Shown here: in pieces, positions 2,397-37,585 of the stretch
Layout of the letters: every line of letters starts with the position of its first letter
How positions within the stretch are numbered: position 1 is the first letter of the stretch
Virus record (IMG/VR): IMGVR_UViG_3300043424_000660
Span: 1-38,138 of that record
Length of the DNA: 38,138 bases
Strand: one strand, 5' to 3'
From: a virus
The notes under the pieces: model-generated
Told to the model about the DNA's origin: nothing
The model's input: the letters and a program-made list of their open reading frames with translations, nothing else
Database searches by the model: none
Made by a program: the position numbers and the translations under genes

Positions 2397-2425
2397 CCTC
2401 TGTGTCCTCTGTGCTCTCTGTGGTT
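2397..2425 (-). repeat. CACAGAG-type dispersed repeat
   Basis: Read on the minus strand this is an array of 9-base units of the form CACAGAGGA beginning AACCACAGAG. A second array in the opposite orientation lies at 27929-27956. In packaging allele B the equivalent spacer (37238-37286) lacks the array and keeps only the flanking GTGGTTAAA. Such arrays occur between genes in some environmental bacteria; here it separates terminase from gpW. Confidence 0.65.
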
Positions 2426-2436
2426 AAATCCTAGTC

Positions 2437-2459
2437 TTTGACACGCCCGCCGAGGCGTG
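2437..2459 (+). promoter_or_regulatory. TTTGACAC element with start-codon hairpin (gpW, copy A)
   Basis: TTTGACAC is followed by the inverted repeat ACGCC-CGCCGA-GGCGT, whose 3' arm contains the GTG start of gpW at 2457. TTGACA ends 13 bases before the start codon. No Shine-Dalgarno and no -10 box are visible. The same arrangement recurs at several other gene starts in the window. Confidence 0.6.
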
Positions 2460-2729
2460 ACCGACCTCGACAAAATCAGCGGCGTTAAATCCTACCTCCG
2501 CCGAACCAAGAACACCGCCGAACTCCAGGCGCTCGCCGACGCGGCGTTTCTCTCCGCGTCCGAGGAAGTCGTCATCACCAGCATCAGCGGCGACGGCACC
2601 GCCTCAAGCGGACAGGTCTCGTTTCCGAAGTGGCTCCTCCTCCAAGCCCTCGAGGAGATCCTCGCTGAGCCAAACGGCCGGCAACTCTGCACGGTCCTCG
2701 ACCGCTCGTTTTTCACCACCCCCGTTTGA
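2457..2729 (+). CDS. gpW-like head-tail connector, copy A
   Basis: A 90-aa protein between large terminase and portal, the slot occupied by gpW in lambda-like phages. The predicted fold (helix, a short beta hairpin around residues 38-55, then the helix WLLLQALEEIL) suits a gpW-type head-completion protein, although similarity cannot be proven by eye. The GTG start is preferred because it lies in the TTTGACAC/hairpin element and because copy B at 37287 begins identically. The two copies encode identical proteins while differing at about 20 nucleotide positions, all synonymous by my count, so the product is under strong purifying selection. The TGA stop sits inside the next TTTGACAC element. 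Confidence 0.65.
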   Translation: MTDLDKISGVKSYLRRTKNTAELQALADAAFLSASEEVVITSISGDGTASSGQVSFPKWLLLQALEEILAEPNGRQLCTVLDRSFFTTPV

Positions 2730-2755
2730 CACGGCGCTCGGAGTCAATGGCTCCG
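2725..2755 (+). promoter_or_regulatory. TTTGACAC element with start-codon hairpin (portal, copy A)
   Basis: TTTGACAC overlaps the gpW stop codon. It is followed by CGGAG-TCAATGG-CTCCG, a five-pair stem whose loop holds the ATG of portal at 2747. There are 15 bases between TTGACA and ATG. It is conserved at 37555-37585 in copy B. Confidence 0.55.
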
Positions 2756-4201
2756 AAAATCAAGAAATCAAGTTGGGGCGGACCTCGCCCCGGTGCAGGC
2801 CGTCCGCGCAAAGACCCCAAGGCAGCGGCATTTGAAGGTGCCGAGCACTCCCGCGAGCGGAGCTTGATTGTGATGAATACCTACGAGCCAAAGCGCGAAC
2901 TCGCGCCACGGACTCGCATGGAGCTGATGCAACGCGCCCGCTGGCTCTACAACAATTTCGGCACGGCTTCCTATCTCATCGAGCACCTCGCCCAGCGCGC
3001 CGTCGGCACGGGCATCGTCCCCAAGGCCCGCACCGCAGACAGCGCATGGAACCGCCAAGCCGAGCGCGCCTTCGAAGACCGCGCTTGCGGTGATGCGTGG
3101 GCCTTCGATGCCAGCGCCCAGGTGAATTTCTACGGCGCTCAATCTCTCATCCTCCGCCAAGTCGCCTGCGACGGCGACTTCTTCGCGCAATTTCTTTCCA
3201 CCCAAGCAGGCGGCACCCGCGTCCGATTCATCGGCGCCGAGGCGGTCGGATCCACGGCCAACAGCAACGAGCGCGCTTTCGACGGCGTTCTTCTCGACCG
3301 CTTCAACGCCCCCGTCAGCTATCGCGTCATTACCGACCGGGCCTCTGGAAAATTTCAAGATGTCCCAGCCGCCGACATGCTGCACTTCCGGCACATCCGC
3401 CGGGCAGGATACCCCCGTGGAGTCTCGTGGCTGCATAACGCCATCACCAACTGCCACGACCTTGTCGAATATCTCGCCTACGAAAAAGGATCCGCCAAAG
3501 CAGGCGCCCAGATCGGATTTGTCGTCACCAGCAACGAAGCCCAAAAGATCGGCCTCGGCGCAGGCAAGATGATCACCGGCCCCAACGGCGAAGAGATCAG
3601 CACCGAAGCCCTCTACAACGGCACGCTCATCCCGCGCCTCAAGCCCGGCGAGTCCATCCAATCATTCAAAAACGAACACCCCGCCGGAGCCTTCGAGCCA
3701 TTCATCCGCACCATCATGGGCGAGATCGCACGAGGCATGGGCCTCCCGCCCGAGGCACTCATGATCTTCGTCGGCAGCGCAGGCACCGAATTTCGCGGTC
3801 TCCTCGAAGTCGCCCAAAACTTCCTCGAGCGGCTCCAGCAAATGCTGATCGATCAATTCTGCCGGCCGCTCTGGAAATTCTGGATCTACCAAGAAATCCA
3901 AGCCGGGCGTTTGCCCTACCCTGGAGATGATTGGTGGCGCTGTGAGTTCGTCGCCCCGCGAAAAATTACCGTGGACAACGGCCGCGACGGCCGCCTCTAC
4001 GCCCAGCTTCTCGACTCCGGTTACATGTCTTGGGAGCGCTACTGCAACCTGCACGGCCTCGATGCCGAAGCCGAAGAGGACGACATCCTCAGCGCCTACA
4101 TTCGCCGCAAAGAAAAATGCGAATCCCTCGGACTCAACCTCGGCGATGTCTTCCCCGCCCAAGCCGAAGCTCTCACCCAACCAACCCAACCCACACCATG
4201 A
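2747..4201 (+). CDS. Portal protein (lambda gpB type), copy A
   Basis: Forms the dodecameric portal ring through which DNA is packaged and to which the tail attaches; 484 aa from the ATG at 2747. Support: typical lambda-type portal segments such as ARWLYNNFGTASYLIEHLA near the start, VRFIGAE, FNAPVSYRV, and a GMGLPPEAL helix-turn around residue 330, plus location between gpW and a ClpP-type protease. An upstream in-frame TTG would add seven residues, but the ATG lies in the hairpin loop conserved in both copies and is preferred. The N-terminus carries an unusual WGGPRPGAGRPRK stretch resembling an AT-hook, a motif more often seen at the front of terminase small subunits. The stop overlaps the next gene as ATGA. 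Confidence 0.9.
   Translation: MAPKIKKSSWGGPRPGAGRPRKDPKAAAFEGAEHSRERSLIVMNTYEPKRELAPRTRMELMQRARWLYNNFGTASYLIEHLAQRAVGTGIVPKARTADSAWNRQAERAFEDRACGDAWAFDASAQVNFYGAQSLILRQVACDGDFFAQFLSTQAGGTRVRFIGAEAVGSTANSNERAFDGVLLDRFNAPVSYRVITDRASGKFQDVPAADMLHFRHIRRAGYPRGVSWLHNAITNCHDLVEYLAYEKGSAKAGAQIGFVVTSNEAQKIGLGAGKMITGPNGEEISTEALYNGTLIPRLKPGESIQSFKNEHPAGAFEPFIRTIMGEIARGMGLPPEALMIFVGSAGTEFRGLLEVAQNFLERLQQMLIDQFCRPLWKFWIYQEIQAGRLPYPGDDWWRCEFVAPRKITVDNGRDGRLYAQLLDSGYMSWERYCNLHGLDAEAEEDDILSAYIRRKEKCESLGLNLGDVFPAQAEALTQPTQPTP
3182..3308 (+). repeat. 127-bp segment identical to the window's 3' end
   Basis: These 127 bases inside portal are identical to 38012-38138, the last 127 bases of the window. The base immediately before differs (C at 3181, T at 38011). 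The offset is 34,830, the same as for the gpW and portal starts. Confidence 0.95.
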
Positions 4202-5319
4202 TCAAATTCTATGCATTGGAAAAATCCAACGACGGCACGGCAACGATTCATCTCTACGATGAGGTCGGTGCTTTTGGCTCAGGGTCAAAAGAGTTCCTCG
4301 CCGACCTTGCCAAGCTCGACGGCCAACACATCCACCTCCGAATCAACTCGCCCGGGGGATCAGTTGTGGAAGGGACCGCGATATATAACTCGCTCCGTCG
4401 TCACAAAGGCGGGCTGACCGTCCACATCGACGCGCTCGCCGCCTCGATGGCCTCGGTCATCGCCATGGCAGGCGCTCCCGTTTACATCGCCGACAACGCT
4501 CTTTTGATGATCCACAACCCATGGACCGTCAGCATGGGAGACAGCGACCAGCTCCGCCGCGAAGCCGACCTCCTCGACAAACTCAAAGACTCCCTCCGCA
4601 ACGCGTATGTCCGCAAGACCGGCATGGAGGCTGACCGCATCGCCGAGATGATGGACCAAGAAACATGGCTCGATGCCGTAGAAGCCGTCGCCCTCGGATT
4701 CGCCGACGCCATCGAGGAAGGCGTCGCCGCCGCAGCCACCGCAACCCCCGCTCAACTCAGGGAGAGATTTGACACCTTCGCCAAAGCAAAATCTATGCAG
4801 AGCCAAGCCGAAACCCAACCCGCCGCCGAGCCCGAGGTCGAAATCCTCGACACCGTCGTCAGCGAATCCGCCCCCGAAGTTGTCGAAGCCCCGGCCGCTG
4901 AGCCCGCCGTCGAGACCGTCCTCGAAGCCGAGCCCACCCCCGAGCCCGAAGTCATCGAGCCGATCGAAAGCCCCGTCGCCAAGATCGCCGCCGCCGACCA
5001 AATCCTCGCCAAATACAACGCCGCCCTCGCCGAGCGTGATGCCGCCCTCGCCGAAATCTCCGCCTACAAAGCCAAACTGGACAACGCCAGCCTCGAGCTC
5101 GCCGCCGAGCGCGAAGCCCTCGCCCGCCTCGAGCGCAGCCTCGGCCTCTCCGCCGCCCGCGTCGTCCCTGTCATTGAGAACGCCAGCCCCGAGGCCTCCG
5201 ACCCCGTCGCCGAATACATCGCCGCCGTGGAAGCCGGAGACCGCAAAACAGCCTCGGCCCTCTTCGAAAAACACAAAGCCGCCATCTGGCAGCACCGCAA
5301 TAAAATTTCCAAGGCCTGA
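4198..5319 (+). CDS. ClpP-type prohead protease with scaffold-like C-terminus
   Basis: Serine protease of the S14/S49 group that matures the prohead, 373 aa. The ATG at 4198 overlaps the portal stop. The ClpP signature INSPGGSV is at 49-56, the probable nucleophile is Ser83 in ALAASMASV, and the probable catalytic His is 106 in LMIHNPW. After about residue 190 the protein becomes Glu/Pro/Ala-rich to about 265, then forms a predicted coiled coil (ALAERDAALAEISAYKAKL) to about 325 and a short helical tail. This resembles the lambda C/Nu3 design, in which protease and scaffold share one polypeptide. I see no separate scaffold or decoration-protein gene before the capsid gene, supporting that reading. 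Confidence 0.88.
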   Translation: MIKFYALEKSNDGTATIHLYDEVGAFGSGSKEFLADLAKLDGQHIHLRINSPGGSVVEGTAIYNSLRRHKGGLTVHIDALAASMASVIAMAGAPVYIADNALLMIHNPWTVSMGDSDQLRREADLLDKLKDSLRNAYVRKTGMEADRIAEMMDQETWLDAVEAVALGFADAIEEGVAAAATATPAQLRERFDTFAKAKSMQSQAETQPAAEPEVEILDTVVSESAPEVVEAPAAEPAVETVLEAEPTPEPEVIEPIESPVAKIAAADQILAKYNAALAERDAALAEISAYKAKLDNASLELAAEREALARLERSLGLSAARVVPVIENASPEASDPVAEYIAAVEAGDRKTASALFEKHKAAIWQHRNKISKA

Positions 5320-5354: not shown

Positions 5355-6203
5355 ATGCCCAATACAATCGACAGCTCCCTGGTTGCTGACTCCATCGCTC
5401 AGCAAACAAAAACCGTCCTCAGCAAGCGCCTCAGCGCTTTGAACCTCTTCGCCTCCGATTTCAGCTCGGATGTTAAGAAGCCAAAAGACACCATCCATGT
5501 GCCAATCGCCTCCGCGACTGCCAGCACATCGGTGAACCCAACCACCTTCAACAGCATCGGCGGCACGACCCTCGGCAAAGCCAGCGTCAGCCTCGACCAC
5601 ATCTACCAGCCCTTCGGCCTCGCTTACAGCGACCTCCAAAGCGCACACCGCTTGGAGCGCCTCATCCAGATCAACCTCGACGCCATCGCCGACAAAATCT
5701 GGACCTTGGCCACAGCGCCCGTGACCGTTGCCAACTTCGGCGCAGCCGTCGTGGACAGCGCAGAAGGCTCGATCAACGCCACCTCCGGCGACCTCCCCTT
5801 GCTCTGGGCAGGTGTCCACAAGTCGATGCGCAAAGGCCTCGTGGTCTCGCCCGTCATCTACAGCAACCTCATCCCGACCAGCACCACCGCCCTCAATCTC
5901 GGTGAAGGCGCTTACGGATTTGAGAATGGCGTCCACTACGCAACCGCATTCGGCGGAGAGAGCGGCCTCAAAGGCTTCGCTTGCTCGCCCGAGGCGCTCG
6001 TCATGGCCGCAGGCGTTCCCGCCCTCGCGGACAACGACTACCTCGTCAGCGACTCGGTCACGCTCGATCAAGTCGGCCTGACCATCTCTTACAATGTGTA
6101 TTCGGACAAGAGCACCCGCTCGCTCATCGCATCGCTTGAAGTGATGTTCGGTGCGTCGAAAGGCCTCACCGACGGCACGATGGCGCTCATCGTCCCAGCG
6201 TAA
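5355..6203 (+). CDS. Major capsid protein
   Basis: Structural subunit of the head shell, 282 aa, plausible for an HK97-fold capsid protein. It follows the prohead protease directly and is followed by a strong terminator, as expected for the most abundant virion protein. The N-terminal ~35 residues (SSLVADSIAQQTKTVLSKRL) are helical and could be the segment trimmed on maturation. Central features such as VHKSMRKGLVVSPVIYSNL and the C-terminal YNVYSDKSTRSLIASLEVMFG suit the P- and A-domains of small HK97-like capsids. The ATG at 5355 is preceded by a C/A-rich leader. The call rests on gene order and composition more than on a diagnostic motif. Confidence 0.82.
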   Translation: MPNTIDSSLVADSIAQQTKTVLSKRLSALNLFASDFSSDVKKPKDTIHVPIASATASTSVNPTTFNSIGGTTLGKASVSLDHIYQPFGLAYSDLQSAHRLERLIQINLDAIADKIWTLATAPVTVANFGAAVVDSAEGSINATSGDLPLLWAGVHKSMRKGLVVSPVIYSNLIPTSTTALNLGEGAYGFENGVHYATAFGGESGLKGFACSPEALVMAAGVPALADNDYLVSDSVTLDQVGLTISYNVYSDKSTRSLIASLEVMFGASKGLTDGTMALIVPA

Positions 6204-6618: not shown

Positions 6619-7013
6619 CCCTCGATACCCAAAACGCCCTCGTCTCCTACCTTCGCGCTCTACCTGCCATGGAAGGGCTCACGATCCACGGCAGCACGGA
6701 CGACAAAGAAATCCCCGGCGACCTGCCCGTCATCGTCGTCTCGTGCGACAACGCCGAAAGCCCTGTCGCCAAGCTCTACCGCGCCACGGTCCAGATCACC
6801 CTCTCCACCCCTGTGCTCCTCGAGGATGCCTTGGAAACCCACCGCACTCTGACGGCAGCCCTCCGCACCGCCGCGAATCTCTCCGCCGTCTCCGCCTTCT
6901 TCCCACCGACTCTCGTTTTCAGCGGCCGTCACCTCACCACCTGGAGCGAATCCCGCGAAGACGAGCGCCTCACCACCACCGCCGAACTCGTCGTTGGCGT
7001 GCGGGAAATTTGA
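6615..7013 (+). CDS. Putative tail terminator / tail completion protein
   Basis: A 132-aa protein starting at the ATG overlapping the previous stop. The pattern of a helical N-terminus (NALVSYLRALPAM), a central strand region (DLPVIVVSCDNAE, ATVQITLSTPVL) and a long helix (ALETHRTLTAALRT) resembles the alpha/beta fold of gpU-type tail terminators that cap the tail tube and join it to the head. It precedes tail-tube-like genes, as such proteins commonly do. No diagnostic catalytic motif exists for the family, so the call is positional. Confidence 0.5.
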   Translation: MTLDTQNALVSYLRALPAMEGLTIHGSTDDKEIPGDLPVIVVSCDNAESPVAKLYRATVQITLSTPVLLEDALETHRTLTAALRTAANLSAVSAFFPPTLVFSGRHLTTWSESREDERLTTTAELVVGVREI

Positions 7014-7033
7014 CAACCCAGCTGAATCAAATG
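7009..7033 (+). promoter_or_regulatory. TTTGACA element before the 52-aa ORF
   Basis: TTTGACA overlaps the preceding stop codon and ends 15 bases before the ATG at 7031, similar to the spacing at the portal and gpW starts. No convincing hairpin is present apart from CAGCTG, so it is a weaker member of the set. Confidence 0.35.
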
Positions 7034-7189
7034 CCCGACCTCGAAACCAAACTCCGCGACCTAATCGACGAAGCCAACGCCGCCGGGGCTTTTGCCAGCG
7101 TTGGCAGCGTGCCGGTCGAAGGCGGCACCAAGCTCGAATTCTATTTCACCCTGCGCGTTCCCTCCGCGCCCCAACCCACCGACGAATAA
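7031..7189 (+). CDS. Small hypothetical tail-region protein
   Basis: A 52-aa acidic protein (LETKLRDLIDEANAAGAF, then VEGGTKLEFYFTLRVP). It is not recognised. The first half is a probable amphipathic helix and the second half a beta hairpin. It lies in line with the tail genes, between the tail-terminator candidate and the first tail-tube-like gene, with two bases to the next ATG. Its reality is supported by tight packing and by the lack of another reading frame that fills the gap. Confidence 0.6.
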   Translation: MPDLETKLRDLIDEANAAGAFASVGSVPVEGGTKLEFYFTLRVPSAPQPTDE

Positions 7190-7191
7190 CC

Positions 7192-7500
7192 ATGGCCTTC
7201 GCAACCATCGACCTTTTCGGAGTCTCCGATCCCGCCTCCGGCTTTGTTCAAGAGACGACCCAAACAGAAACCGCCGAAATCGCCTCCGTTCGCGACACGA
7301 CCGGAGTCACCAAACTGGCCGTGCTGAAAGGTGTCGTCACTACCGAGACGGTCATCAAAGGCAAAGGCACCTACGCGCCCGCCGTCACGGCCAATAACAA
7401 TGTCACCGGCACGGCTGTCATCACCTCCGCCAAAGTCTCCGAGTCCGCAGAGGATTTCCCAGACTACGAAGTCACCTACCAACAATTCGCCTCGAACTAA
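7192..7500 (+). CDS. Small beta-rich tail protein, paralogue 1
   Basis: 102 aa, probably almost all beta-strand. The start at 7192 is the first ATG after the previous stop. Blocks KGKGTYAP, TGTAVITSAKVSE and FPDYEVTYQQFAS align by eye with SGKGAPCP, TGKVIINSIKNQ and WESWEYSGEGFPS in the next gene, so the two look like tandem paralogues. Size, position before the chaperones and beta-rich composition would suit a minor tail or tube-decorating subunit. A classical 150-250-aa major tail protein is not otherwise evident between capsid and tape measure, so one or both may be tube subunits. Confidence 0.6.
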   Translation: MAFATIDLFGVSDPASGFVQETTQTETAEIASVRDTTGVTKLAVLKGVVTTETVIKGKGTYAPAVTANNNVTGTAVITSAKVSESAEDFPDYEVTYQQFASN

Positions 7501-7502
7501 CT

Positions 7503-9767: not shown

Positions 9768-11360
9768 ATGGCAGATGTAACAGTCACACTAGGGGCCAAA
9801 GACACCGGCCTGCAAAACGCCATCAAAAAGGCGAACAGCTCCGTCGCCGCCATGAAACCCGCCATGGTCGGCGTCGCAGCCGCCGGAGCCGCAGCTTTCG
9901 CCGCTCTCGGAGTCGCCGCCGCAGGCGTCAAAGCCGCCCTCGATATGGGCGGCGTCCTCTCTGATGTCGCGGGGCAGACCGGCATGACCGCCGGGAAAGT
10001 CATGCTCCTGCGAACAGCCTTCGACCAGGCAGGCATCGGCGCGGATCAAGTCGGCGGCACGATCAATAAAATGCAGCGGGCGATTGCCGAAGCCACCACA
10101 GGCAGCGGCCCAGCCGCCGAGGCTCTGCAAAAGCTCGGCCTGTCCGCAGCCGATCTTTCCGCCCAATCCCCCGACCAAGCTTTCAATGCCATCGGCGCAG
10201 CCCTCTCCGGCATTGCCAACCCCACCGAGCGCGCCGCCGCCGCCATGGACATCTTCGGCAAAAGCGGCGGCAAGCTCCTCACCCTTTTCGGCGACTCGGG
10301 CGCCCTCGCCACAGCAGGCGACACCCTCGGCGCGCAGGCGTCGATCATGGATAAGAACGCCAGCGTGTTTGACCGGACATCCGATCTCATCAATGCCTCC
10401 TCCAACAAGCTCCAAGGCGTGTTCGTCGGCATGGCCGAATCGATCGCCCCGGCGATCCTGCCGCTCCTCGAGCAATTCAATAAGATGGATTTCACCGCGC
10501 TCGGGCAGCAGATCGGCAGCGCGGCCTCGATGTTCATCCAAGCGATGACCGATGGGTCGATTTGGAGCATCATTGGCGACAGCATCAAGATTTCCCTGGG
10601 CAACGCCGCCAACTTCCTTTTCCGGTCCCTCTCGGGAGTCATCACCGCCATCGCCCGCCTGATCCCCGAGATTGTGCAAAACGCCGTGAGCTTCTTCAGC
10701 CTCGTCACAAAGGCAGATTTTTGGAAAGGCATGTTGCAAGCACTCCTCGGCGCAGCCCAAGCATTTGGCGCAAAACTTCTCGGCATCATCGCCCAAGCCC
10801 TCGGGCTTTTTGCAAAAATCCCAGGCCTCGCCGGAATGCTCGAAGGCCCGATGGAGGCCGTGCAAAACGCCAGCAATTCCCTCCAAGGGTCCGCCGATCA
10901 AAACCTCGCGGAAGGTGGCGATGCGCTCACGCCGTTTTTCAATCAAGCCCGCGAGCGAATCAATGCCTCCCTCGCCGCCGCCGGCCAAGGCTTCATGGAA
11001 GGCTTCGATGGTGCAGGCGATGTCTTCGACCTTTCCGGTGTGCAGTCTAATCTCGACGGCACCTTTAACCGCTTGGGCAACACCGTCGAATCCCTCAAAA
11101 CCCAAGCCCAAGCCGCCCTCCCTGCTCCAAATGCCGGCGGCCTAGCATCCGCTTTCGGAGCGATGGAAGAAAAATCCGGCGCAGATGGCAAAGCCACCAA
11201 CCAACCACTCTTCGCCAGTTCCCTCGCCAAAATCGGCGGCGGGGGTGGCATCGCGGGCGGTCCCGCCGCACTGCTCGACGAAAACCGCCGCCAGACAAAC
11301 TTCCTCCGCCAGATCGCCCAGCGCCTCGGAAACCTCAACCCCACCCCGCTCCTCGCCTAA
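9768..11360 (+). CDS. Tail tape measure protein
   Basis: 530 aa; sets tail length and later helps DNA entry. The N-terminus (VTLGAKDTGLQNAIKKANSS) with a following hydrophobic Ala/Gly stretch at about 29-58 and GGVLSDVAGQTGMTAGKV is typical of TP901-like tape measures. Two further hydrophobic helical regions lie at about 275-305 and 320-355 (LGIIAQALGLFAKIPGLAG). It begins one base after the preceding stop. At roughly 0.15 nm per residue, 530 residues would correspond to a tail near 80 nm, short for a siphovirus. No tail sheath or baseplate set is evident, favouring a non-contractile tail. Confidence 0.87.
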   Translation: MADVTVTLGAKDTGLQNAIKKANSSVAAMKPAMVGVAAAGAAAFAALGVAAAGVKAALDMGGVLSDVAGQTGMTAGKVMLLRTAFDQAGIGADQVGGTINKMQRAIAEATTGSGPAAEALQKLGLSAADLSAQSPDQAFNAIGAALSGIANPTERAAAAMDIFGKSGGKLLTLFGDSGALATAGDTLGAQASIMDKNASVFDRTSDLINASSNKLQGVFVGMAESIAPAILPLLEQFNKMDFTALGQQIGSAASMFIQAMTDGSIWSIIGDSIKISLGNAANFLFRSLSGVITAIARLIPEIVQNAVSFFSLVTKADFWKGMLQALLGAAQAFGAKLLGIIAQALGLFAKIPGLAGMLEGPMEAVQNASNSLQGSADQNLAEGGDALTPFFNQARERINASLAAAGQGFMEGFDGAGDVFDLSGVQSNLDGTFNRLGNTVESLKTQAQAALPAPNAGGLASAFGAMEEKSGADGKATNQPLFASSLAKIGGGGGIAGGPAALLDENRRQTNFLRQIAQRLGNLNPTPLLA

Positions 11361-12718: not shown

Positions 12719-14737
12719 ATGATTGCCTACACAATCACCGCGCCGTTGGCGAATGGGACGAGCTATCAGCGCACGGAGTCGGAGAGCGGGTCGTTTTTTG
12801 AAATAAAAACTGGAGGGTGGACAGTCAGCTCAACTACAAGAGACGACGCTGATGGGAAGACATATAAGATTCAAGATAACGGAGGCGAATCGCGATCAAT
12901 AACTTACACGAATCAACAAATAATTGACGGATATGTTTCCGAGTGGGGAGGGGTAACCTTTGAACACGGTTCAGGAGCTGGAGATTTTCACGAAACAGTA
13001 TCTCCTGAAGGGTTATACTCAGCAACCAACAGTCATGGATATACATGGACTATTATAAGGCAGTCAGATGATGCTTTTTACTATGAAAACGGCGAACGCG
13101 TAACAAGCAGAGTAGAAACACGCAGGCAATACGATACTGGCGAAGGTCATGTTATGGCTAGCCCAAATGCGCCAAAGGATAGCGATGGGAATACTGTTCA
13201 AGAAGCCCTTTATGCGACTTATACATACAACGGCGGCGGCGGAGTAGCTGTTCCTGCAAGTCTATATTTTTGGACATACGCATCGCAAACCACCACAAAA
13301 ACCACCGTTACAAATTACGGCAAAGTCACCACGACAACGCAGGAGAAACTAGCAAAAGTCGGCACGACGATCACACAAAGCGTCGGAACTTCGATTGTCA
13401 CCCTGCCAACCACGACCAACGCGAAATCGTGGACAGAAAACACCACGACAAACACCACCGCGACCGAAGAGGCTACGGTGGTCACGACCAGTATGGGCAT
13501 CGACTCGTATTGGAAAAAAACCGCTCACACGGTTTACATTTTAAGCAAAGGCGAAACGGCGGCTTTTCTCAAATCCGATGTCGCCCTCAACGCCACGAAT
13601 GGCGGGCCGACTGATACCGCCGCCTACGATACCTACAGCGGGCCGACGACTTTCACAATCACCCGAGCCGCAGGCACGACGAGCCAGAAGCCCGTAGTCG
13701 CCGACACAGCGACAGATATCGGTTTTGAGGCGGGAGAGGGATCGGAAACAACCGTGACAAATCGTTGGATCGTCGCCGCCAATAGCACAGGCACTTATTA
13801 TTATCCCGGCTGGCCCCATCATTTTCCATTATCTTCCGCCAACATAACGATCCAAACAGGAGTTACAGAATCCAGCTCAACTTTTAATGATTACAAACAG
13901 GGCGAAGGTTCATGGGGAGCAAATGCACAAACAACCACGCGCTCGGCTTGGAGCCAAACCTCGGTGACATACAACCTTGCGGGCGTGTCTTTCACAGAGG
14001 GCGTTCCCACTTACACGCAAGAAACCTACGCCCAGCCAATCGTTAGGTCGGGATCAGAGTCTTATGAAGGCGGCGCAAACGGCTTCGGAGAGCAAGCCAA
14101 CTATTTTGTCAACTTCCAAAACGAAGGCAGGCAAAACAACGGCGGTGGCGGAGCGGATGCTTTCTACGGCCTTGCCTACGCATGGGGGACTCTCGGCGGA
14201 ACCACGGCAACCCCCCGCCAATCCATCAGCGTGGATGGCATCGCCTCCAGCGAGTCGGTGACATGGCCGTTCGTCTCCATCTCCGCAGGGGTGCAGACAC
14301 CAAAACCCTTTGTCACTGTGTCCCAAAAGCCCGAAACAAGCGCGACATCCAGCACGGCAGCGACAAAGACCGAAGCGACCACGCGCCGGATTTGGGGCGA
14401 GGAGTTTGCTAAAACCACATCTAACCAAAATTCCTCCACAGGAACTTCCGGCTCTACGATCACGCCAATCCAAGCAGGCGGGGCCGCGATCACATCGTTT
14501 CAACTAGGAGGCGCAAGAGGCTTCCCCGTCAGCCAACTCGCAGGCGGATGGATTCCCGCGCCCGCCATGTTCGTCGTCGGCGGAATCGCACAGACCAACG
14601 ACAGCACCGCGATCATACCACCCGGTGAATATGCCAACTCCACAATCACCGCGCCCAAATCATTCTTCGGCTCCTCGATAGCGAACACCTACTTCGAGCC
14701 AAAAGCCGCAGTCACCTATCTATGCTTTCCATCGTAG
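12719..14737 (+). CDS. Large Thr-rich tail fibre/adhesin
   Basis: 672 aa, beginning with the base after the previous stop. It is rich in Thr, Ser and Gly with alternating short strands (TTKTTVTNYGKVTTTTQEKL; TTNTTATEEATVVTTSMG), as in fibrous beta-structured adhesins. No catalytic motif is recognised. About 12830-13300 is distinctly more AT-rich than the flanking tail genes and uses codons such as ATA and AAT, pointing to acquisition or diversifying exchange of the N-terminal third. The gene runs 16 bases into the glycosyltransferase-like gene. A receptor-binding role is inferred. Confidence 0.65.
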   Translation: MIAYTITAPLANGTSYQRTESESGSFFEIKTGGWTVSSTTRDDADGKTYKIQDNGGESRSITYTNQQIIDGYVSEWGGVTFEHGSGAGDFHETVSPEGLYSATNSHGYTWTIIRQSDDAFYYENGERVTSRVETRRQYDTGEGHVMASPNAPKDSDGNTVQEALYATYTYNGGGGVAVPASLYFWTYASQTTTKTTVTNYGKVTTTTQEKLAKVGTTITQSVGTSIVTLPTTTNAKSWTENTTTNTTATEEATVVTTSMGIDSYWKKTAHTVYILSKGETAAFLKSDVALNATNGGPTDTAAYDTYSGPTTFTITRAAGTTSQKPVVADTATDIGFEAGEGSETTVTNRWIVAANSTGTYYYPGWPHHFPLSSANITIQTGVTESSSTFNDYKQGEGSWGANAQTTTRSAWSQTSVTYNLAGVSFTEGVPTYTQETYAQPIVRSGSESYEGGANGFGEQANYFVNFQNEGRQNNGGGGADAFYGLAYAWGTLGGTTATPRQSISVDGIASSESVTWPFVSISAGVQTPKPFVTVSQKPETSATSSTAATKTEATTRRIWGEEFAKTTSNQNSSTGTSGSTITPIQAGGAAITSFQLGGARGFPVSQLAGGWIPAPAMFVVGGIAQTNDSTAIIPPGEYANSTITAPKSFFGSSIANTYFEPKAAVTYLCFPS

Positions 14738-15756
14738 TCGCAGCGACCAAGACCTACCTCCACGCCTTCCCTCAATGCGTCCGAGCTATTTCAGCCGCCG
14801 CCGCGCATCATGCCGAAGCGCATTTTATTTTTGTCACGGACGAATCAAAGGACGCCAAACGCGCCGAAGAAGCCCTGCAATCCGAACTCCCCGAAGGCTG
14901 GCGGCTCACCGTCCTGCGCCTCGCCATGGGCGATGATACCTCCACTCGCTACAAAGAAGAAGCGCAACTCCGAATCGCCCGCCTGCAAGGATCAGGCTTC
15001 GCCATGGCGCGAAAAATCCGCGCCTCCCGTTGCTGGGTGGTCGAAAGCGACACCATCGTCAGCGGCGATGCCCTGCGCGTCCTCGAATGGACGCTCGCCA
15101 TGCCCACGGCGGACGGATCGCCACACTACGACATCGCCGCCGCCACCTACCCGAACGGGCTTTTCCTCGGCGGTTTCGGCTCGCCACAGCACCAGATCGC
15201 CGAGGATTTCCTGCCCTCCGAAAAGAAACTCCCCGCCCGTTTAAAACTCTGCCTCGACACCTGCGAGTCCCGCCTCAAGTCCTGCAAAGATCAAACAACC
15301 GCCGAGCGCGAATACAAGCGCATGGAGCGTCTCCGCGAGCGCATCAAGAACTGCCCGCCCGACGGCAATGTCTTTGAAGTCACGGCCAAGCACGGCTGGC
15401 GGCGGCGCGGCTGGATGGATTTCGCTTATCCCGCCATCGGGCGCGGAGCCATCGTGCCGAGCGATTGGTGCGGCTTGGGTTGCACACTCCTCTCTGCCCG
15501 TGCCCTAGCCCACGCCGACTTCACGGGCTACGAAGGCAAAGGCACACAAGACCTTTTCCTCTGCTGGTCGCGGTGGTATCCGGCGGGCCTCAAGATCGCC
15601 TGCGTCCCCCATGTCGTCTGCGACCACATCAAACGCAAATCTGCCGACGCTCCGAAGGACGCCCCCGAAATCATCCACCACCGAGCCTACCACGAAACCG
15701 AGGGAGAATGTCGCGGACATCTTCGCGTCCGCACTCAACCCTTTGTTGCTGTCTGA
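14722..15756 (+). CDS. Glycosyltransferase-like protein
   Basis: 344 aa. The N-terminus MLSIVVAATKTYLHAFPQC has the hydrophobic strand plus turn of GT-A-type glycosyltransferases. A metal/nucleotide-sugar motif candidate is CWVVESDTIVSG (E108-S-D110). The C-terminal region GKGTQDLFLCWSRWYPAG and VPHVVCDH resembles the acceptor-side acidic and His segments of GT-A enzymes. A charged helical insertion (about 175-215) is unusual. It sits between fibre genes and overlaps both neighbours, so it belongs to the late tail operon. Possible roles are glycosylation of the virion's own fibres or alteration of the host surface. The enzymatic class is inferred from motif layout; it is not a confident family match. 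Confidence 0.6.
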   Translation: MLSIVVAATKTYLHAFPQCVRAISAAAAHHAEAHFIFVTDESKDAKRAEEALQSELPEGWRLTVLRLAMGDDTSTRYKEEAQLRIARLQGSGFAMARKIRASRCWVVESDTIVSGDALRVLEWTLAMPTADGSPHYDIAAATYPNGLFLGGFGSPQHQIAEDFLPSEKKLPARLKLCLDTCESRLKSCKDQTTAEREYKRMERLRERIKNCPPDGNVFEVTAKHGWRRRGWMDFAYPAIGRGAIVPSDWCGLGCTLLSARALAHADFTGYEGKGTQDLFLCWSRWYPAGLKIACVPHVVCDHIKRKSADAPKDAPEIIHHRAYHETEGECRGHLRVRTQPFVAV

Positions 15757-17240
15757 TGTTACTTGTCGTTCCAGTTTCGATTTTTGATCGCCACATTGCG
15801 GCGGATTTTATTTCTGCCGTCTTGACTCAAGGGAAGTGTAAAAAACACCGTCTGCTGGTGGTAGCCTCACCACAGGCGAGCATTTATGCGCTCCGCCTAT
15901 CCGTTGAAATTGGCGGGCTTTTTGAATCCTGCGACACCCACATCTTTGATGAAAATGGGCCGGAAGGCTGGCCGTGCGGCCCGAATTATTACTTCTCGCA
16001 AACCGTCAAACACCTTGAGGAAATCAACAACCCCTTCCCGTGGTTGTGGTGCGAACTGGACTCCACGCCGATGCTCCCGAACTGGCTGGACATCATCGAG
16101 GCGGAATATGTTGCCGCCGCCATGCCCTTCCTTGGCGTCAAAGCGACTTGCGATAGACGCTCTGGAAAGTATGTCGTGCAACAAAACTATGTCGTCGGCG
16201 TTGCCGTTTACCCTCCGAAATTCTCACAGTATTTCCGCGACTATATGCACTTCCCTCCCGACACGGCATTCGATCTGTATTTAGGCGCACATTTGCACGA
16301 GCTGGCGGCACAGAGCCAAACGATCCAGCACTGTTACCGAACCAAGAACTACCAAGACACGGGGGGCGGAGTTTTTCAGGGATGCCACGGATCGGACTAC
16401 AAGTCCAAGCCCATGAATGATCCCGTAAATCCCGAAACGGCGTTGTTGCATGGATGCGACGATGGCTCTCTGGCTCGTCTAATCGCTCCAAAGCGACCAA
16501 AACCAAAAGAATTAGACACAGTGCCGCTATTTCTGGCTGTCCCGCGATGTGGAACGACCTACACGCGAGAATCCATGAGGCAAATTTTGCGAGATCGCGC
16601 TAACCGATTGAGAAAGTCGTGGGCAGTTTTGCAATTTGGAAACAATGGAGGGGTTGAGATTGAAGCCTATATTTTAGGAGCAGACCCAGCCCCCATGCAA
16701 TCGCTCTCCATGCTTTTCAAAATGAATCACCCCGGCCTCTTGTTTGCCTGTGCCACATCGGTCGCTTTTGAAAATCGAGATGCCTACAATCCCGTTGTCG
16801 ATAAAATCGCCCAGCACTCTCCCAAGCCGCTCGAATGCTTTACTTTTATTCGCCCGCCCGTGGATCGAATCGAGTCGTCGTCTGCATATAATCAATCCGA
16901 GCAGATTAGCGAAAACTGGATGACCAAGTATTTATACGCCTGCTTTTATCCCGAGCAATGGCCCGCTCCGACACCTATTGAAGCCAAGTTTCGGGCTTTG
17001 GAAGGCTTAATCGAATCCGACAAGATAAAGGTTTTTCGCTTTCCGTTTTTTAACGAAGCCCTCTCAAAAATTTCCGCTTCAAAACTGCCACTTCATTTTG
17101 GCGAAATTTCACACAGAGAGCGGTCGTTCAATCGCCGCCCAGCATTTCACGCAGCCTTTGATTCGGAAAAAATAAATTCAGGGAATGAGGTCGATTTGAA
17201 ACTTTATCAATTAAGTCAGCCCTCCGAACCGCTCCAGTAA
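15756..17240 (+). CDS. Glycosyltransferase-like / sulfotransferase fusion
   Basis: 494 aa from the ATG overlapping the previous stop. The N-terminal half (1-250) has a GT-A-like layout with WLWCELDSTPM (E100-x-D102), similar to the E-x-D of the preceding protein. The C-terminal half carries a sulfotransferase signature: the 5'-phosphosulfate-binding loop LFLAVPRCGTTYTRESM at about 258-274 and a 3'-phosphate-binding segment FTFIRPPVDRIESSSAYN at 362-379, matching the FxFxRDPVxRxxSxY pattern of carbohydrate sulfotransferases. The expected reaction is transfer of sulfate from PAPS to a glycan. From about 16500 the gene is more AT-rich than its surroundings. Its place in the fibre cluster suggests modification of a virion or cell-surface glycan. 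I am fairly sure of the sulfotransferase domain and less sure of the N-terminal one. Confidence 0.7.
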   Translation: MLLVVPVSIFDRHIAADFISAVLTQGKCKKHRLLVVASPQASIYALRLSVEIGGLFESCDTHIFDENGPEGWPCGPNYYFSQTVKHLEEINNPFPWLWCELDSTPMLPNWLDIIEAEYVAAAMPFLGVKATCDRRSGKYVVQQNYVVGVAVYPPKFSQYFRDYMHFPPDTAFDLYLGAHLHELAAQSQTIQHCYRTKNYQDTGGGVFQGCHGSDYKSKPMNDPVNPETALLHGCDDGSLARLIAPKRPKPKELDTVPLFLAVPRCGTTYTRESMRQILRDRANRLRKSWAVLQFGNNGGVEIEAYILGADPAPMQSLSMLFKMNHPGLLFACATSVAFENRDAYNPVVDKIAQHSPKPLECFTFIRPPVDRIESSSAYNQSEQISENWMTKYLYACFYPEQWPAPTPIEAKFRALEGLIESDKIKVFRFPFFNEALSKISASKLPLHFGEISHRERSFNRRPAFHAAFDSEKINSGNEVDLKLYQLSQPSEPLQ

Positions 17241-17260: not shown

Positions 17261-17291
17261 TTTGACACCCGCCGCTCGCTCGAGCGGCATG
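17261..17291 (+). promoter_or_regulatory. TTTGACAC element with hairpin (HxH fibre)
   Basis: TTTGACACCC is followed by CCGCTCG-CT-CGAGCGG, a perfect seven-base inverted repeat, and then ATG at 17289. TTGACA lies 21 bases from the ATG, the longest spacing in the set. This is the cleanest inverted repeat among these elements. Confidence 0.55.
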
Positions 17292-18662
17292 AAACTTTTC
17301 CTCGACCAAAAAAACCGGCGATTCATCAAATCGGCCGCGTCGAATGTCGCGCTCCAGACCCTCGTCTTAAAACGCCGCGACCAGGTTCCGATCGAGGTCA
17401 TCTTCGTAGAGAACGGCGTGGCCGTCGATCCCCCCGCTGGAACCCAGTCCACCGTTGCGCTCAAGAACTCATTCTCTGACTCCAATTTTTTAGCTTTGGC
17501 GGCTCCTGGCCAAACCATCCTCGATTTAAATACCCAGCCAGTCGAAGCCGCCTTCTCCTCCGACCCTGCCAGCATCTCCGCCTTCCTTGAGATCCGCTGG
17601 ACCGCTCCGACCCAAGCCCTGCGCACCGCGACCCTCCAAGTCGAAATCCAGAACAGCGTCATCCTCGGCGACGAAGGCACACCCGCCGCCCTGCCAGACG
17701 GCAAAGCCACGCAGGCCGAAGCGGAAGCCGGAACCGACAACGAAAAATGGATGACGCCGCTCAGGACGGCGCAGGCCATCGCCGAACTTGCCCCTCCGCC
17801 CACCTGGGACAGCGTCACCGGCAAGCCAACCGAGTTTCCTCCCGAGGCCCACACGCACACCGCCGCCGACATCGAGGACTTCGCCGAGGCGGTTGTTGCC
17901 GTCTCCCCACCCGTCGATTGGTCCTCGCTGACAGGCAAGCCGAGCACCTTCGCACCGAGCAGCCACACGCATCCAATCAGCGAGGTCGAAGGTCTCCAAA
18001 CCGCCCTCGACAATGCCAGCGATCGGATCGACCTCCTTGCCGAAAACCTCGGGACCGAAAATCTCGACTCCATCGCTGAAGCCGCCGCCTCGATCAATAC
18101 GCTACAGGCTCAGGTTGACGGCAAAGCCCCCGCCGTCCACACCCACGCCGCCACCGAGATCACCGGCCTTTCGTCCTACATCATCGCCTCCGCTCCCGGC
18201 CTGCAAATCAACACCACCGTCCGCATCGGCGACGGCGTGAGCGTCACCTTCCCGATCGACGGCCTCGTCAGCTCCGACCCCGAGCATGTCCTCGTGGCCC
18301 TCAACGGTGTCACCCAAACCCCAGTCGCCGACTACACCGTCAGTGAGGCCACCGGCACGATCACCTTCGACAGCGCGCCCGCCGCCGGAATGCAGATCTC
18401 CTGCACCGCCCTCGGCCTCCGCACCGTCCAGCCGCCGATCGACCCGACTCTCTACCTCTACGCCTTCGACCAATCGCAGGACGGCCTCACCACCTTCAGC
18501 GGCCGCCTCCTCAATGCCGACCGCCCCGCCGCGCCCGCACTCCCCGAGACCGCCACAACCTGGACCATCCGCCGATCCACCCTCTCCGCCGCCGGGCGGA
18601 TCCTCGCCACCGCCTCCGCCGTCGGCGCGTGGGCTAACCGCACAACGCTCTCCTACCAATGA
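17289..18662 (+). CDS. Tail fibre protein with HxH repeats
   Basis: 457 aa from the ATG right after the hairpin (an upstream in-frame TTG at 17262 would lie in the regulatory element). The N-terminal ~135 residues form a BppU-like beta domain (KRRDQVPIEVIFVENG). Three repeats of the form WxSxTGKPxxFxPxxHTH occur at about 175-195, 215-235 and, shortened to APAVHTHAATEI, near 286; HxH pairs in phage fibres bind metal ions along a trimeric shaft. The segment between them is predicted coiled coil (ALDNASDRIDLLAENL). The C-terminal domain is beta-rich (VRIGDGVSVTFPIDGLV). It overlaps the next small gene as ATGA. Confidence 0.78.
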   Translation: MKLFLDQKNRRFIKSAASNVALQTLVLKRRDQVPIEVIFVENGVAVDPPAGTQSTVALKNSFSDSNFLALAAPGQTILDLNTQPVEAAFSSDPASISAFLEIRWTAPTQALRTATLQVEIQNSVILGDEGTPAALPDGKATQAEAEAGTDNEKWMTPLRTAQAIAELAPPPTWDSVTGKPTEFPPEAHTHTAADIEDFAEAVVAVSPPVDWSSLTGKPSTFAPSSHTHPISEVEGLQTALDNASDRIDLLAENLGTENLDSIAEAAASINTLQAQVDGKAPAVHTHAATEITGLSSYIIASAPGLQINTTVRIGDGVSVTFPIDGLVSSDPEHVLVALNGVTQTPVADYTVSEATGTITFDSAPAAGMQISCTALGLRTVQPPIDPTLYLYAFDQSQDGLTTFSGRLLNADRPAAPALPETATTWTIRRSTLSAAGRILATASAVGAWANRTTLSYQ

Positions 18663-19937: not shown

Positions 19938-20318
19938 ATGCCAAATCCACAAATCATTCCAAAAAAGTCGGTCCAAGCCTCAGCCATTCCGACCACCGCG
20001 CAACTCGCCCTCGGCGAGATTTGCGTGAACCACGCCGACCGCCGAATCTACTCGCGCAACCCCTCCACCGGCGAAGTCTACAAACTGGCCGGAACCAAAG
20101 ACGCCCCCGATCGCGTCTGGTCCTTCGACATCTCCGCCGACGGCACAACGACCTACCTCGGCTTTCTTCTTTACGCCGATTTCCCCGCCACCGGCAGCGT
20201 CTACGACAGCGCCAACTGGGAAATCTCCCGCACCATTTTCAACGCCTCCGGCACCACCAGCACCGAATCCAGCGCCACCGGCGCGTGGTCCAATAAAGAA
20301 AATCTCACCTACGCATGA
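19938..20318 (+). CDS. Fibre attachment / small fibre protein
   Basis: 126 aa. The N-terminus (TTAQLALGEICVNHADRRIY) is a variant of the fibre attachment module in the 18939 protein (LQTGELAIDTLNKSLF). The C-terminal part (GTTTYLGFLLYADFPATG and ATGAWSNKENLTYA) resembles the end of the HxH fibre protein (WTIRRSTLSA...WANRTTLSYQ), so these small proteins share a terminal module. It overlaps the LRR adhesin gene as ATGA and probably assembles with it. Confidence 0.6.
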   Translation: MPNPQIIPKKSVQASAIPTTAQLALGEICVNHADRRIYSRNPSTGEVYKLAGTKDAPDRVWSFDISADGTTTYLGFLLYADFPATGSVYDSANWEISRTIFNASGTTSTESSATGAWSNKENLTYA

Positions 20319-21343
20319 TCGCCCAGCCACTCTTTCCAAAAGCCAAATCCAAAAATAGCTGGAACCGCCCCGGCGATTGGCTACCCCTCACGGCTCCGAG
20401 CAGCCAAGGCTTTGCGGGCCTCCACGCGGTATGGGAGAATGATTCCAATTTCGTCGCAGTCACCGTCTCGGGAGCCTACACGGTCGATTGGGGCGATGGA
20501 TCACCCGCCGAGAACTTGGCGACCGGTGCCACCGCCGAGCATATTTATTCGTGGGAAGATCTCCCCGCCTCCAGCCTCACCAGTCGCGGCTACCGCCAAG
20601 CGATCATCCGCATCACGCCACAGAGTGGCGCGAATCTGACCAGCATCACCCTACATGTGAAGCACTCGCAGTCTGGATTGGTTAGCGCCTACAGCTCCGG
20701 TTGGTTGGAACTCAAATACAACACGCCGAATTTGAGTGGAAACTTCGGTCCCGGCGGCGCGGCAAGTCTTGTGAGGCACCGCTATTTGGAGCGAGTGCAG
20801 TTCCTCGCTCTCGGGGCGATTGGCGTTTATCAAGCATTCAATTTCTGTAGCGGCCTAATCCAAGTCGATTTCCCTCCAAACACATCAAGTGGCAACGGCG
20901 CTCTCTTTTGCGAAGAAGCGAGGTCTTTGAAGGCCGGGCCATCGGTAAATACCTCAAGTGTCACGGATTTCCAAAGAGCGTTCCAAAACTGCTCATCGCT
21001 GACCAGCATCCCGCTTTACAGCTTGGGATCATGCACAAACATTAGCTCGGCTTTTTCTGGCTGCTCCGCTCTCAAGGAAATCCCCGCTCTCAACCTCTCG
21101 GCGGTCACAAATTTCACGAATACTTTCTTAAACTGCACCAGCCTCTCCCGAGTTCGCGCCACAGGCATCAACGCCACCGTCTCGTTTGCCAACTGTTCAC
21201 TGAGCGCCACCGCGCTCAATGAGATTTACACAAACCTCTCCAGCACCGGCAGCGGCAAGACTATCACCGTCACCGGCAACTACGGAACGGCCTCCGACAA
21301 CCCCAGCATCGCCACCGCCAAGGGCTGGACCGTCACCGGTTAA
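20315..21343 (+). CDS. Tail-tip adhesin with PKD-like and BspA-type LRR repeats
   Basis: 342 aa. Residues about 45-80 include YTVDWGDGSPAENL, the core of a PKD-like domain. From about 170 onward there are repeats of BspA/DUF285 type: FNFCSGLIQVDFP, FQNCSSLTSIPL, FSGCSALKEIPALNL, FLNCTSLSRVRATG, each with the FxxCxxLxxIP pattern. BspA-like LRRs are surface-binding modules in cellular adhesins. Used by a phage they would suit a receptor-binding tip. The gene is coupled to the upstream fibre module by ATGA. GC is slightly lower than in adjacent fibre genes. Confidence 0.75.
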   Translation: MIAQPLFPKAKSKNSWNRPGDWLPLTAPSSQGFAGLHAVWENDSNFVAVTVSGAYTVDWGDGSPAENLATGATAEHIYSWEDLPASSLTSRGYRQAIIRITPQSGANLTSITLHVKHSQSGLVSAYSSGWLELKYNTPNLSGNFGPGGAASLVRHRYLERVQFLALGAIGVYQAFNFCSGLIQVDFPPNTSSGNGALFCEEARSLKAGPSVNTSSVTDFQRAFQNCSSLTSIPLYSLGSCTNISSAFSGCSALKEIPALNLSAVTNFTNTFLNCTSLSRVRATGINATVSFANCSLSATALNEIYTNLSSTGSGKTITVTGNYGTASDNPSIATAKGWTVTG

Positions 21344-24168: not shown

Positions 24169-25203
24169 ATGGCACGGCAAATGGTTGAAATTGCCCCCGT
24201 GAGCGCAACAGACGCAACACGGCGCAACAAGCCAGTTGTCACCATTCGCACGGCGACGGTGCGGGGGGAACCTCGCTTTGTTGTTTTTTCTCGGATCAAT
24301 GGCACGACAAAGAGGGAATTTTTTCGCACCCAGACGGAGGCGAGGGTTCATCAGGCGGCACTCTTGGAGAAGCTGGAGACTCGGGGGACGGAGGCTTTCA
24401 CCGGCCCGGCGGGAATGACGGTAGCGCAGGGGTGGCGGGAGTTCTGCCTGGCGCGGATGCCGAAGCTGAAGGACGGAAATCACCGGCGCTTGCTGGAGTG
24501 GTGGTGGGGAAAATTTGTGGCCGAGTATGGCGCGAAGGAACTCCGCGACATCAAGGCGATTCACATCGATGCGTTTCTCTCGCGGCCGGGATGGTCGGGG
24601 ACTACGGCGAATCAGGGCTTCGTGTATCTGCGGTTGGTCTGGAATTGGCTTGTGCGCTACGAACTCACCTCGACCAATCCGGTGCTGAAGATCGATACGC
24701 CGAAGGCGGCGCCGGAGCATCACTTGTTGACGGTGCCCGAGGTGAAGCGTCTTTTGGCTCTCACGAAAAAAGATGCGCGCCTCCGGGCTTGGCTCGTGCT
24801 CGGAGTTTTTGGCGGCATGCGAATCTCAGAGGTTTGGCGGTGCGAGCCGAAGCACATCGAAAAAGATGAGATTTTCATCCCGATCCGCAAAACGACGGAC
24901 ATCCAACCGAGGCCTCATTTCGTGCCGATCCTCCCTGCCCTCCGCCGGCATCTGCCAAAAAAGTGGCCGCGCATCAACGAGGACATCATCAAGCGCGCCC
25001 GCACGAAGCTGGCCGAACAAATGAAGTGGGAGGAATGGCCGCAGAATTGCCTTCGCCACACGGCGGCATCCATGCACCGCGCCATGTGGCAGGATTCCAA
25101 TAAGACGGCTTATTTTCTCGGGCATTCCTCGGCGCGGATGGTGGAGGAAAAATATGCGCGGGGCGTGCGAAAAGCGGACGCGGAGAAGTTCTGGGCGCTT
25201 TAG
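24169..25203 (+). CDS. int: Tyrosine-family integrase
   Basis: Site-specific recombinase, 344 aa, starting at an ATG with GAAAGGG upstream. An N-terminal arm-binding region is followed by a SAM-like core-binding domain (about 80-175) and a catalytic domain. Catalytic residues: Arg218 in GVFGGMRISEV, a likely Lys at 241, Arg296 in QNCLRHTAAS, His319 in FLGHSS and the nucleophile Tyr329 in VEEKYAR. The usual His three residues before the second Arg is Asn293; integrases with N-x-L-RH occur in Verrucomicrobiota and Planctomycetota mobile elements. The 5' coding region overlaps three CGCAACA repeats. It faces the minus-strand RHH gene. Confidence 0.92.
   Translation: MARQMVEIAPVSATDATRRNKPVVTIRTATVRGEPRFVVFSRINGTTKREFFRTQTEARVHQAALLEKLETRGTEAFTGPAGMTVAQGWREFCLARMPKLKDGNHRRLLEWWWGKFVAEYGAKELRDIKAIHIDAFLSRPGWSGTTANQGFVYLRLVWNWLVRYELTSTNPVLKIDTPKAAPEHHLLTVPEVKRLLALTKKDARLRAWLVLGVFGGMRISEVWRCEPKHIEKDEIFIPIRKTTDIQPRPHFVPILPALRRHLPKKWPRINEDIIKRARTKLAEQMKWEEWPQNCLRHTAASMHRAMWQDSNKTAYFLGHSSARMVEEKYARGVRKADAEKFWAL
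24204..24229 (+). other. CGCAACA repeats right of attP core
   Basis: Three copies at 24204-24210, 24213-24219 and 24223-24229 inside the first codons of the integrase gene. Together with the left pair they flank the core, consistent with integrase arm sites, though here they are also coding sequence. Confidence 0.45.
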
Positions 25204-35156: not shown

Positions 35157-35561
35157 ATGAAAGCAAAGAAGACCCCAAAGAGAGGAAAAGGCCGCCCGCG
35201 CAATCCTGTGACGGATCACATTGCCGATGAGCTTGCTGTCACGAAACGGCAGGCGCGCAACCTTGCCGCCGAGTCCGAGACCACCGGCCTTCCCGTGGAG
35301 GACATGAAGGCCGCGAGGCTCAGGAAGCTGAAGCTCGAGGGCGACCGGATCGAGTATTTGCTCGAGGTCACCAAAGGGAAGCACATTGCAAAAGAAAAGG
35401 TAGAGGAAGAAATGATCGGCCTCGGCATGGCTGTGAAGGCTCAACTCTTTTCGTGGGTGGGTGCATTGCCTGGTCGACTCGAAGGGCTATCGGCGGCGCA
35501 GATGGTGCCGATCTTGGAAGATGAAATAAACCGGATCCTCAAAACGCTTTCCGACGAATGA
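35157..35561 (+). CDS. Terminase small subunit, allele B
   Basis: 134 aa. The start at 35157 follows a TATAATG sequence. The N-terminus is basic (KAKKTPKRGKGRPRNPVTDH) and precedes a helix-turn-helix-like ADELAVTKRQARNLAAE, then a helical charged body (KLKLEGDRIEYLLEVTKGKH) typical of Nu1-type small subunits. The stop overlaps the large terminase as ATGA. It is unlike the 221-aa allele A protein, so the two packaging modules recognise DNA with different subunits. Confidence 0.72.
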   Translation: MKAKKTPKRGKGRPRNPVTDHIADELAVTKRQARNLAAESETTGLPVEDMKAARLRKLKLEGDRIEYLLEVTKGKHIAKEKVEEEMIGLGMAVKAQLFSWVGALPGRLEGLSAAQMVPILEDEINRILKTLSDE

Positions 35562-37237: not shown

Positions 37238-37266
37238 AATAATCCCAGTGGTTAAACCTCTGATTC

Positions 37267-37289
37267 TTTGACACGCCCCCTCGGGCGTG
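37267..37289 (+). promoter_or_regulatory. TTTGACAC element with start-codon hairpin (gpW, copy B)
   Basis: TTTGACAC is followed by ACGCCC-CCTC-GGGCGT and the GTG start at 37287. Relative to copy A the loop bases differ but the stem remains paired and gains one pair. Confidence 0.6.
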
Positions 37290-37559
37290 ACCGACCTCGA
37301 CAAAATCAGCGGCGTTAAATCCTACCTCCGCCGCACCAAGAACACCGCCGAACTCCAAGCCCTCGCCGACGCCGCGTTTCTCTCCGCCTCCGAGGAAGTC
37401 GTCATAACCTCCATTTCCGGCGACGGCACCGCATCGAGCGGACAGGTCAGTTTTCCGAAATGGCTCCTCCTCCAAGCCCTCGAAGAAATCCTCGCTGAGC
37501 CAAACGGCCGGCAACTCTGCACGGTCCTCGACCGCTCGTTTTTCACGACCCCCGTTTGA
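37287..37559 (+). CDS. gpW-like head-tail connector, copy B
   Basis: 90 aa, identical in protein sequence to copy A at 2457, with about 20 synonymous nucleotide differences. It starts with GTG in the hairpin element and ends in the TTTGACAC element of portal. The synonymous-only divergence shows a diverged allele rather than a re-read of the same DNA. Confidence 0.66.
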   Translation: MTDLDKISGVKSYLRRTKNTAELQALADAAFLSASEEVVITSISGDGTASSGQVSFPKWLLLQALEEILAEPNGRQLCTVLDRSFFTTPV

Positions 37560-37585
37560 CACGGCCCTCGGAGTCAATGGCTCCG
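37555..37585 (+). promoter_or_regulatory. TTTGACAC element with start-codon hairpin (portal, copy B)
   Basis: Same layout as 2725-2755: the motif overlaps the gpW stop, and CGGAG-TCAATGG-CTCCG holds the ATG at 37577 in the loop. The stem bases are unchanged between copies. Confidence 0.55.

Follow-up and report, generated by a model that had tools for sequence, protein, structure and literature searches.

The C-terminal half of a 494-residue protein encoded in the tail module of a metagenomic phage (IMG/VR virus record IMGVR_UViG_3300043424_000660) is supported, at the level of the enzyme family, as a divergent sulfotransferase by the sum of sequence comparisons and a structural model. It is fused to an N-terminal domain, here called GTN, that is probably a GT-A enzyme, and its gene is coupled to a conserved glycosyltransferase-like gene, here called GT1. 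The best reading of this locus, which I hold with about even confidence, is that the putative enzymes glycosylate and sulfate a tail protein of the virion in the cytosol. The window, that is, the whole stretch of DNA analyzed, is 38,138 nt in length, and the features needed below are as follows.

9768-11360: tape measure gene, upstream of the fusion gene in the tail module
12719-14737, plus strand: 672-residue hypervariable Ser/Thr-rich (26.5%) tail-module protein, the candidate glycan acceptor
14722-15756, plus strand: GT1, conserved 344-residue GT2-like glycosyltransferase (borderline PF13641), translationally coupled to the fusion gene
15756-17240, plus strand: 494-residue fusion protein (GT-A-like N-terminal domain and C-terminal sulfotransferase domain); open reading frame with an ATG start, orthologs and purifying selection
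15756-16499, plus strand: GTN, residues 1-248, putative GT-A glycosyltransferase domain, based on its family and alignment
16503-17237, plus strand: C-terminal sulfotransferase domain, residues 250-494, based on profile matches, hhalign, an AF2 model and Foldseek
16536-16574, plus strand: 5'-phosphosulfate-binding loop AVPRCGTTYTRES, residues 261-273, with R264 at the usual Lys/Arg place
16839-16892, plus strand: 3'-phosphate-binding motif FTFIRPPVDRIESSSAYN, residues 362-379, with R366 and S374 at the R+8 spacing
17262-18662, plus strand: PTR-repeat/minor tail protein, the 3' border of the accessory slot
24169-25203: integrase gene

The first-pass annotation had described an open reading frame with both PAPS motifs lying among fibre genes, and this was confirmed. 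The gene order is tape measure, Ser/Thr-rich gene, GT1, fusion gene and PTR/minor tail gene. The stop codon of GT1 overlaps with the start codon of the fusion gene (TGATG at 15754-15758), and the start region of GT1 overlaps by 16 nt with the end of the gene for the 672-residue protein. Thus, the coupling of the Ser/Thr-rich gene, GT1 and the fusion gene is real. As for the naming of the coupled gene as glycosyltransferase-like, GT1 is borderline, scoring 26.9 bits against PF13641 with a cut-off of 27.

In the fusion protein, the starts of the two PAPS motifs are 103 residues apart. The core of the 5' loop, AVPRCGTT at residues 261-268, comes after a strand (256-260) and before a helix starting at about residue 267 in the AF2 model. 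A chance match was considered and put low; a loose version of the motif pair arose once in 20,000 shuffles of the fusion protein, and among 484 background ORFs of at least 200 residues it was found in the ortholog only and in no unrelated ORF. A profile (A5) made from the C-terminal domains of the fusion protein and its phage relatives was searched blind in 286 bacterial genomes of a single class, that of a metagenome-assembled genome (MAG) labelled Chthoniobacter flavus. This gave only three matches (E 8e-4 to 4e-3). Each of them bears sulfotransferase motifs, such as IHIPKCGG together with FTVVRNPVDRAHSLYNY or FAHIPKTGG together with YITFLRDPADLLVSYYNY. All three align at the 3' motif, and two of them also, in a separate alignment, at the 5' loop; one match (G050:C11) independently exceeds the PF03567 cut-off. 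The register of R366 and S374 (R+8) is that of the bacterial sulfotransferases found in this way. When the group of the window protein alone was compared by hhalign with bacterial Sulfotransfer_2 proteins, p was 0.0006 to 0.003, reaching 3e-5 with the relatives included, while the controls (decoys, reversed sequence and the N-terminal half) gave p of 0.12 or worse. PF03567 also matches 4 of the 19 members of the C-terminal domain family, with a best value of 8e-4; where a score was given, it lay under the cut-off.

An AlphaFold model of the C-terminal domain, based on a 19-sequence alignment, has a P-loop-like fold (pLDDT 76, pTM 0.79). Against the PDB, Foldseek ranked SULT1A1-PAP first with an E-value of 0.05, and against viral structures a sulfotransferase was again first (E 0.02, probability 0.77); TM-scores were 0.3 to 0.4, and neither match is significant by itself. 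Structure prediction of residues 250-494, the check that had been suggested, yielded a P-loop-like model with sulfotransferases ranked first but matches of E 0.02-0.05. Of the 50 best PDB matches, 16 were sulfotransferases and much of the remainder were P-loop kinases or GTPases. A kinase reading of this half was considered too, and the absence of a Walker A GKT/S from the fusion protein argues against it. The assignment rests on the summed tests, several of them partly independent, and on these the predicted sulfotransferase domain stands. It resembles PF03567 (Sulfotransfer_2, the carbohydrate sulfotransferases of the PAPS sulfotransferase clan) in that both PAPS motifs are in order and in register and that relatives match the family. 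In contrast to that family, the fusion protein itself has no match in Pfam, and none in PHROGs or NCBIfam; it is joined to an unrelated N-terminal domain, and it is shortened after the 3' motif, where about 23 residues found in relatives are missing. All three close orthologs retain R264, R366 and S374. Both halves of the fusion protein are under purifying selection, with dN/dS of 0.13-0.19 for the N-terminal half and 0.15-0.29 for the C-terminal half, as compared with 0.03-0.06 for GT1; an out-of-frame value for the Ser/Thr-rich protein of L002 was left out of this comparison.

The N-terminal half had been described as glycosyltransferase-like. GTN belongs to a family found in more than 87 viral contigs, and in an alignment of 37 sequences (A10), E100, D102, W110, G148 and D173 are invariant and H232 is present in 36. 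The invariant E100 and D102 form an ExD motif of the metal-binding type. Together with the linkage to sugar genes, this motif suggests that GTN is probably a GT-A enzyme, so the earlier description is plausible in this respect, while the homology tests were negative: GTN had no profile match in Pfam, PHROGs or PDB, and hhalign of GTN against GT1 and against PF13641/GT2 proteins was not significant. GTN was not filed as a member of a glycosyltransferase family because it has no detectable homology to a known one. Two bacterial proteins with no assigned function are its distant relatives. The sole model spanning the N-terminal half, an AlphaFold model of the full protein from four sequences, has a pLDDT of 33. 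Elsewhere in the family, the ORF at L127:3144-4583 looks like a tandem pair of GTN domains, and L122:5776-8241 has a GTN fused to an apparent further glycosyltransferase.

Is the pairing of GTN with a sulfotransferase conserved in other phages? A search for such pairs had been proposed, and they were found in several phage lineages, either fused or adjacent. Orthologs with the full architecture are present in L001 (95% identity), L002 (about 89-90%) and, more distantly, L016 (34%). Including the window and L236, whose layout is different, five contigs have GTN and the sulfotransferase domain in one chain, and in another five (L094, L218, L219, L232 and L234) a GTN gene lies directly upstream of a separate sulfotransferase gene. 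The L236 protein (L236:3261-5879, 872 residues) consists of a GTN-like part, a degenerate sulfotransferase domain and an intact one, and is apparently a separate glycosyltransferase-sulfotransferase fusion. The L016 protein (L016:7068-8663) has FIENPFKRVAS, with Glu replacing the 3'-phosphate-binding Arg. At L220:6001-8400, three neighbouring genes have sulfotransferase motifs, the middle one of which (6887-7501) has no Pfam match. Large contigs of up to 217 kb that bear a sulfotransferase also have genes for GT61, FkbM methyltransferase, GT11, Glf (UDP-galactopyranose mutase), WcbI, RgpF and GDP-mannose dehydratase. By tblastn, neither the fusion protein nor GT1, GTN or the sulfotransferase domain had a relative among 50,697 phage records.

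GT1 is more widespread, with relatives in at least 108 metagenomic viral contigs, 80 of which were kept for analysis (60-98% identity). GT1 adjoins a Ser/Thr-rich protein of 380-900 residues in every one of the 72 loci whose neighbour could be mapped. The Ser and Thr content of this neighbour is 21-39% with a mean of 29.5%, against an average of 15% for other ORFs of at least 300 residues, and it is the most Ser/Thr-rich ORF in 64 of 65 loci; as the ORF calls came from a simple script and the loci are related to one another, the Mann-Whitney p of 1e-32 for this enrichment overstates independence. One out-of-frame row (4196-5319) was excluded from these figures. The neighbours, in the window and in L005-L165, are hypervariable, falling into 37 sequence clusters beside GT1 proteins that are 60-98% identical. 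The link persists even when the Ser/Thr-rich gene is on the opposite strand, as in L022-L053. On the other side of GT1, the slot is variable and is occupied by the sulfotransferase fusion, GTN alone, DUF3431 or an RmlC-like epimerase, or is empty, with a fibre gene directly after GT1. A sugar-type gene (RmlC-like, GTN or DUF3431) is near GT1 in 29 of 76 mapped loci. Since most phages with GT1 have no sulfotransferase, sulfation is not essential. In a few loci (L066:7008-7712, L068, L069, L079 and L083), DUF3431 (PF11913) lies between GT1 and the RmlC-like epimerase, and this position suggests a sugar role for DUF3431.

The phage is marked as temperate by its integrase gene, and its host is probably a verrucomicrobium, judging from sequence relatives. 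The nearest annotated phage by TerL is Akkermansia phage Moulinsart (34%), the product of 5355-6203 has its only match in Verrucomicrobia phage P8625 (25%), and GT1 has a 75% match in the MAG labelled Chthoniobacter flavus, in which most of the tail module is present and no fusion gene follows GT1. In genomes from the family of this MAG, sulfotransferases abound (20 of 26 over the PF13469 cut-off). The probable hosts are thus rich in sulfotransferases, and PAPS is therefore likely to be available. With 93.6% identity, the portal gene start (2420-3308) recurs at the end of the record (37248-38138), and the second of two TerL genes (688-2391 and 35558-37237), which are only 31% identical, precedes the repeated portal start. 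This may mean that the assembly is chimeric and over-wrapped, or that related phages lie in tandem. After the fibre genes, the region 20315-21343 has a weak similarity to BspA-type LRR/DUF285 (E 4e-6 and 2e-5).

I infer sugar transfer by GTN, sulfate transfer, the acceptor and the biological benefit from this context. The fusion protein would be a soluble enzyme with two domains, produced from the late tail operon; no membrane segment was found in it or in GT1 (highest 19-residue hydropathy 1.46). GT1 probably adds the first sugar or sugars, GTN probably adds a sugar as a GT-A-type enzyme with an ExD metal site, and the C-terminal domain would transfer sulfate from host PAPS onto the glycan. 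As acceptor, the Ser/Thr-rich tail protein whose gene lies directly upstream of GT1 is the likeliest; it would be modified in the cytoplasm during virion assembly to give a short sulfated O-glycan on the tail. The fusion gene would then be an optional decoration cassette in the slot after GT1. On a wider scale, I tentatively suggest that a widespread phage lineage, seen so far only in metagenomes, glycosylates its hypervariable Ser/Thr-rich tail protein by a modular pathway to which some members add sulfate, making a mucin-like sulfated virion glycan; my confidence in this falls somewhat short of even.

The first-pass annotation had offered three roles for such a glycan, namely decoration of the phage's own fibres, mimicry of sulfated host polysaccharides and alteration of the cell surface against superinfection. 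These are inseparable by sequence alone, and decoration of the virion itself is the best supported because GT1 is linked to the Ser/Thr-rich protein. This link could, however, be shared synteny, the loci being related. It is rather unlikely, if by no means far-fetched, that the enzymes instead act in the cytoplasm on a surface or capsule glycan of the host, or on its lipid- or nucleotide-linked precursor, causing a receptor change and superinfection block or lysogenic conversion. The integrase would suit such a role, as would the Glf, RgpF and GDP-mannose dehydratase genes of the large sulfotransferase-bearing contigs, and phage glycosyltransferases beside tail fibres were interpreted likewise by the authors of PMC7029224. 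However, the genes are coupled within a late tail operon instead of standing as a separate unit, neither a flippase nor a GtrB-like gene was seen next to them, the enzymes lack a membrane segment, and GT1 keeps its Ser/Thr-rich tail-module partner despite changes of strand order.

The C-terminal domain might also have the fold of a sulfotransferase without its activity, or it might sulfate protein tyrosine or some other acceptor and play no part in a glycan. The great divergence of the domain, the missing Pfam match, the loss of some 23 residues behind the 3' motif and the higher dN/dS of the C-terminal than of the N-terminal half all point that way, but the three binding-site residues are kept in the close orthologs, a dN/dS of 0.15-0.29 means constraint, and the domain is repeatedly found joined to a sugar-type gene or next to one. 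I regard this as improbable. Least probable by far is that the bases of phage DNA are hypermodified by a sulfated sugar. Phage systems of this kind, with glycosyltransferases and sulfotransferases, were proposed computationally (Iyer et al. 2013, as cited in PMC10829341); the present genes, however, sit in a tail operon, and no base hydroxylase, hydroxymethylase or thymidylate-synthase-like enzyme is among the annotated proteins of the window.

Mycobacteriophages Che8, Corndog and Myrna use glycosyltransferases of their own to glycosylate capsid and tail tube (Freeman et al. 2023, as summarized in PMC12363180). Glycosylation of virion proteins by phage-encoded glycosyltransferases, as inferred here, would resemble that system. 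In contrast, no sulfotransferase is mentioned in the searched text of PMC12363180, the acceptors there are capsid and tail tube rather than a putative Ser/Thr-rich tail protein, and the present host is probably in Verrucomicrobia. Phage sulfotransferases of unclear function are on record in OM43 phages and Synechococcus phage S-SRM01 (PMC10580990). Those are likewise PAPS-type enzymes of tailed phages, but they belong to Sulfotransfer_3, while the domain described here is a divergent Sulfotransfer_2-like one that, within a defined glycan locus, is joined to a sugar-type domain. In pelagimyophages, hypervariable regions of glycosyltransferases, most commonly GT8, lie beside tail fibres, and modification of the host O-chain was inferred (PMC7029224). 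Sugar genes thus adjoin fibre genes in these aquatic phages as well, although no sulfotransferase is mentioned for them. Since phage sulfotransferases had already been recorded (PMC10580990), the novelty is confined to the composition of the system.

Few phages are known for Verrucomicrobia. Here, fusion and gene order connect a phage sulfotransferase with a sugar-type domain, with GT1 and with a candidate acceptor, which makes a testable hypothesis. If it is true, the surface chemistry of phages would gain a new layer in the form of sulfated virion glycans, with a bearing on how phage particles adsorb to sulfated polysaccharides and how they are recognized.
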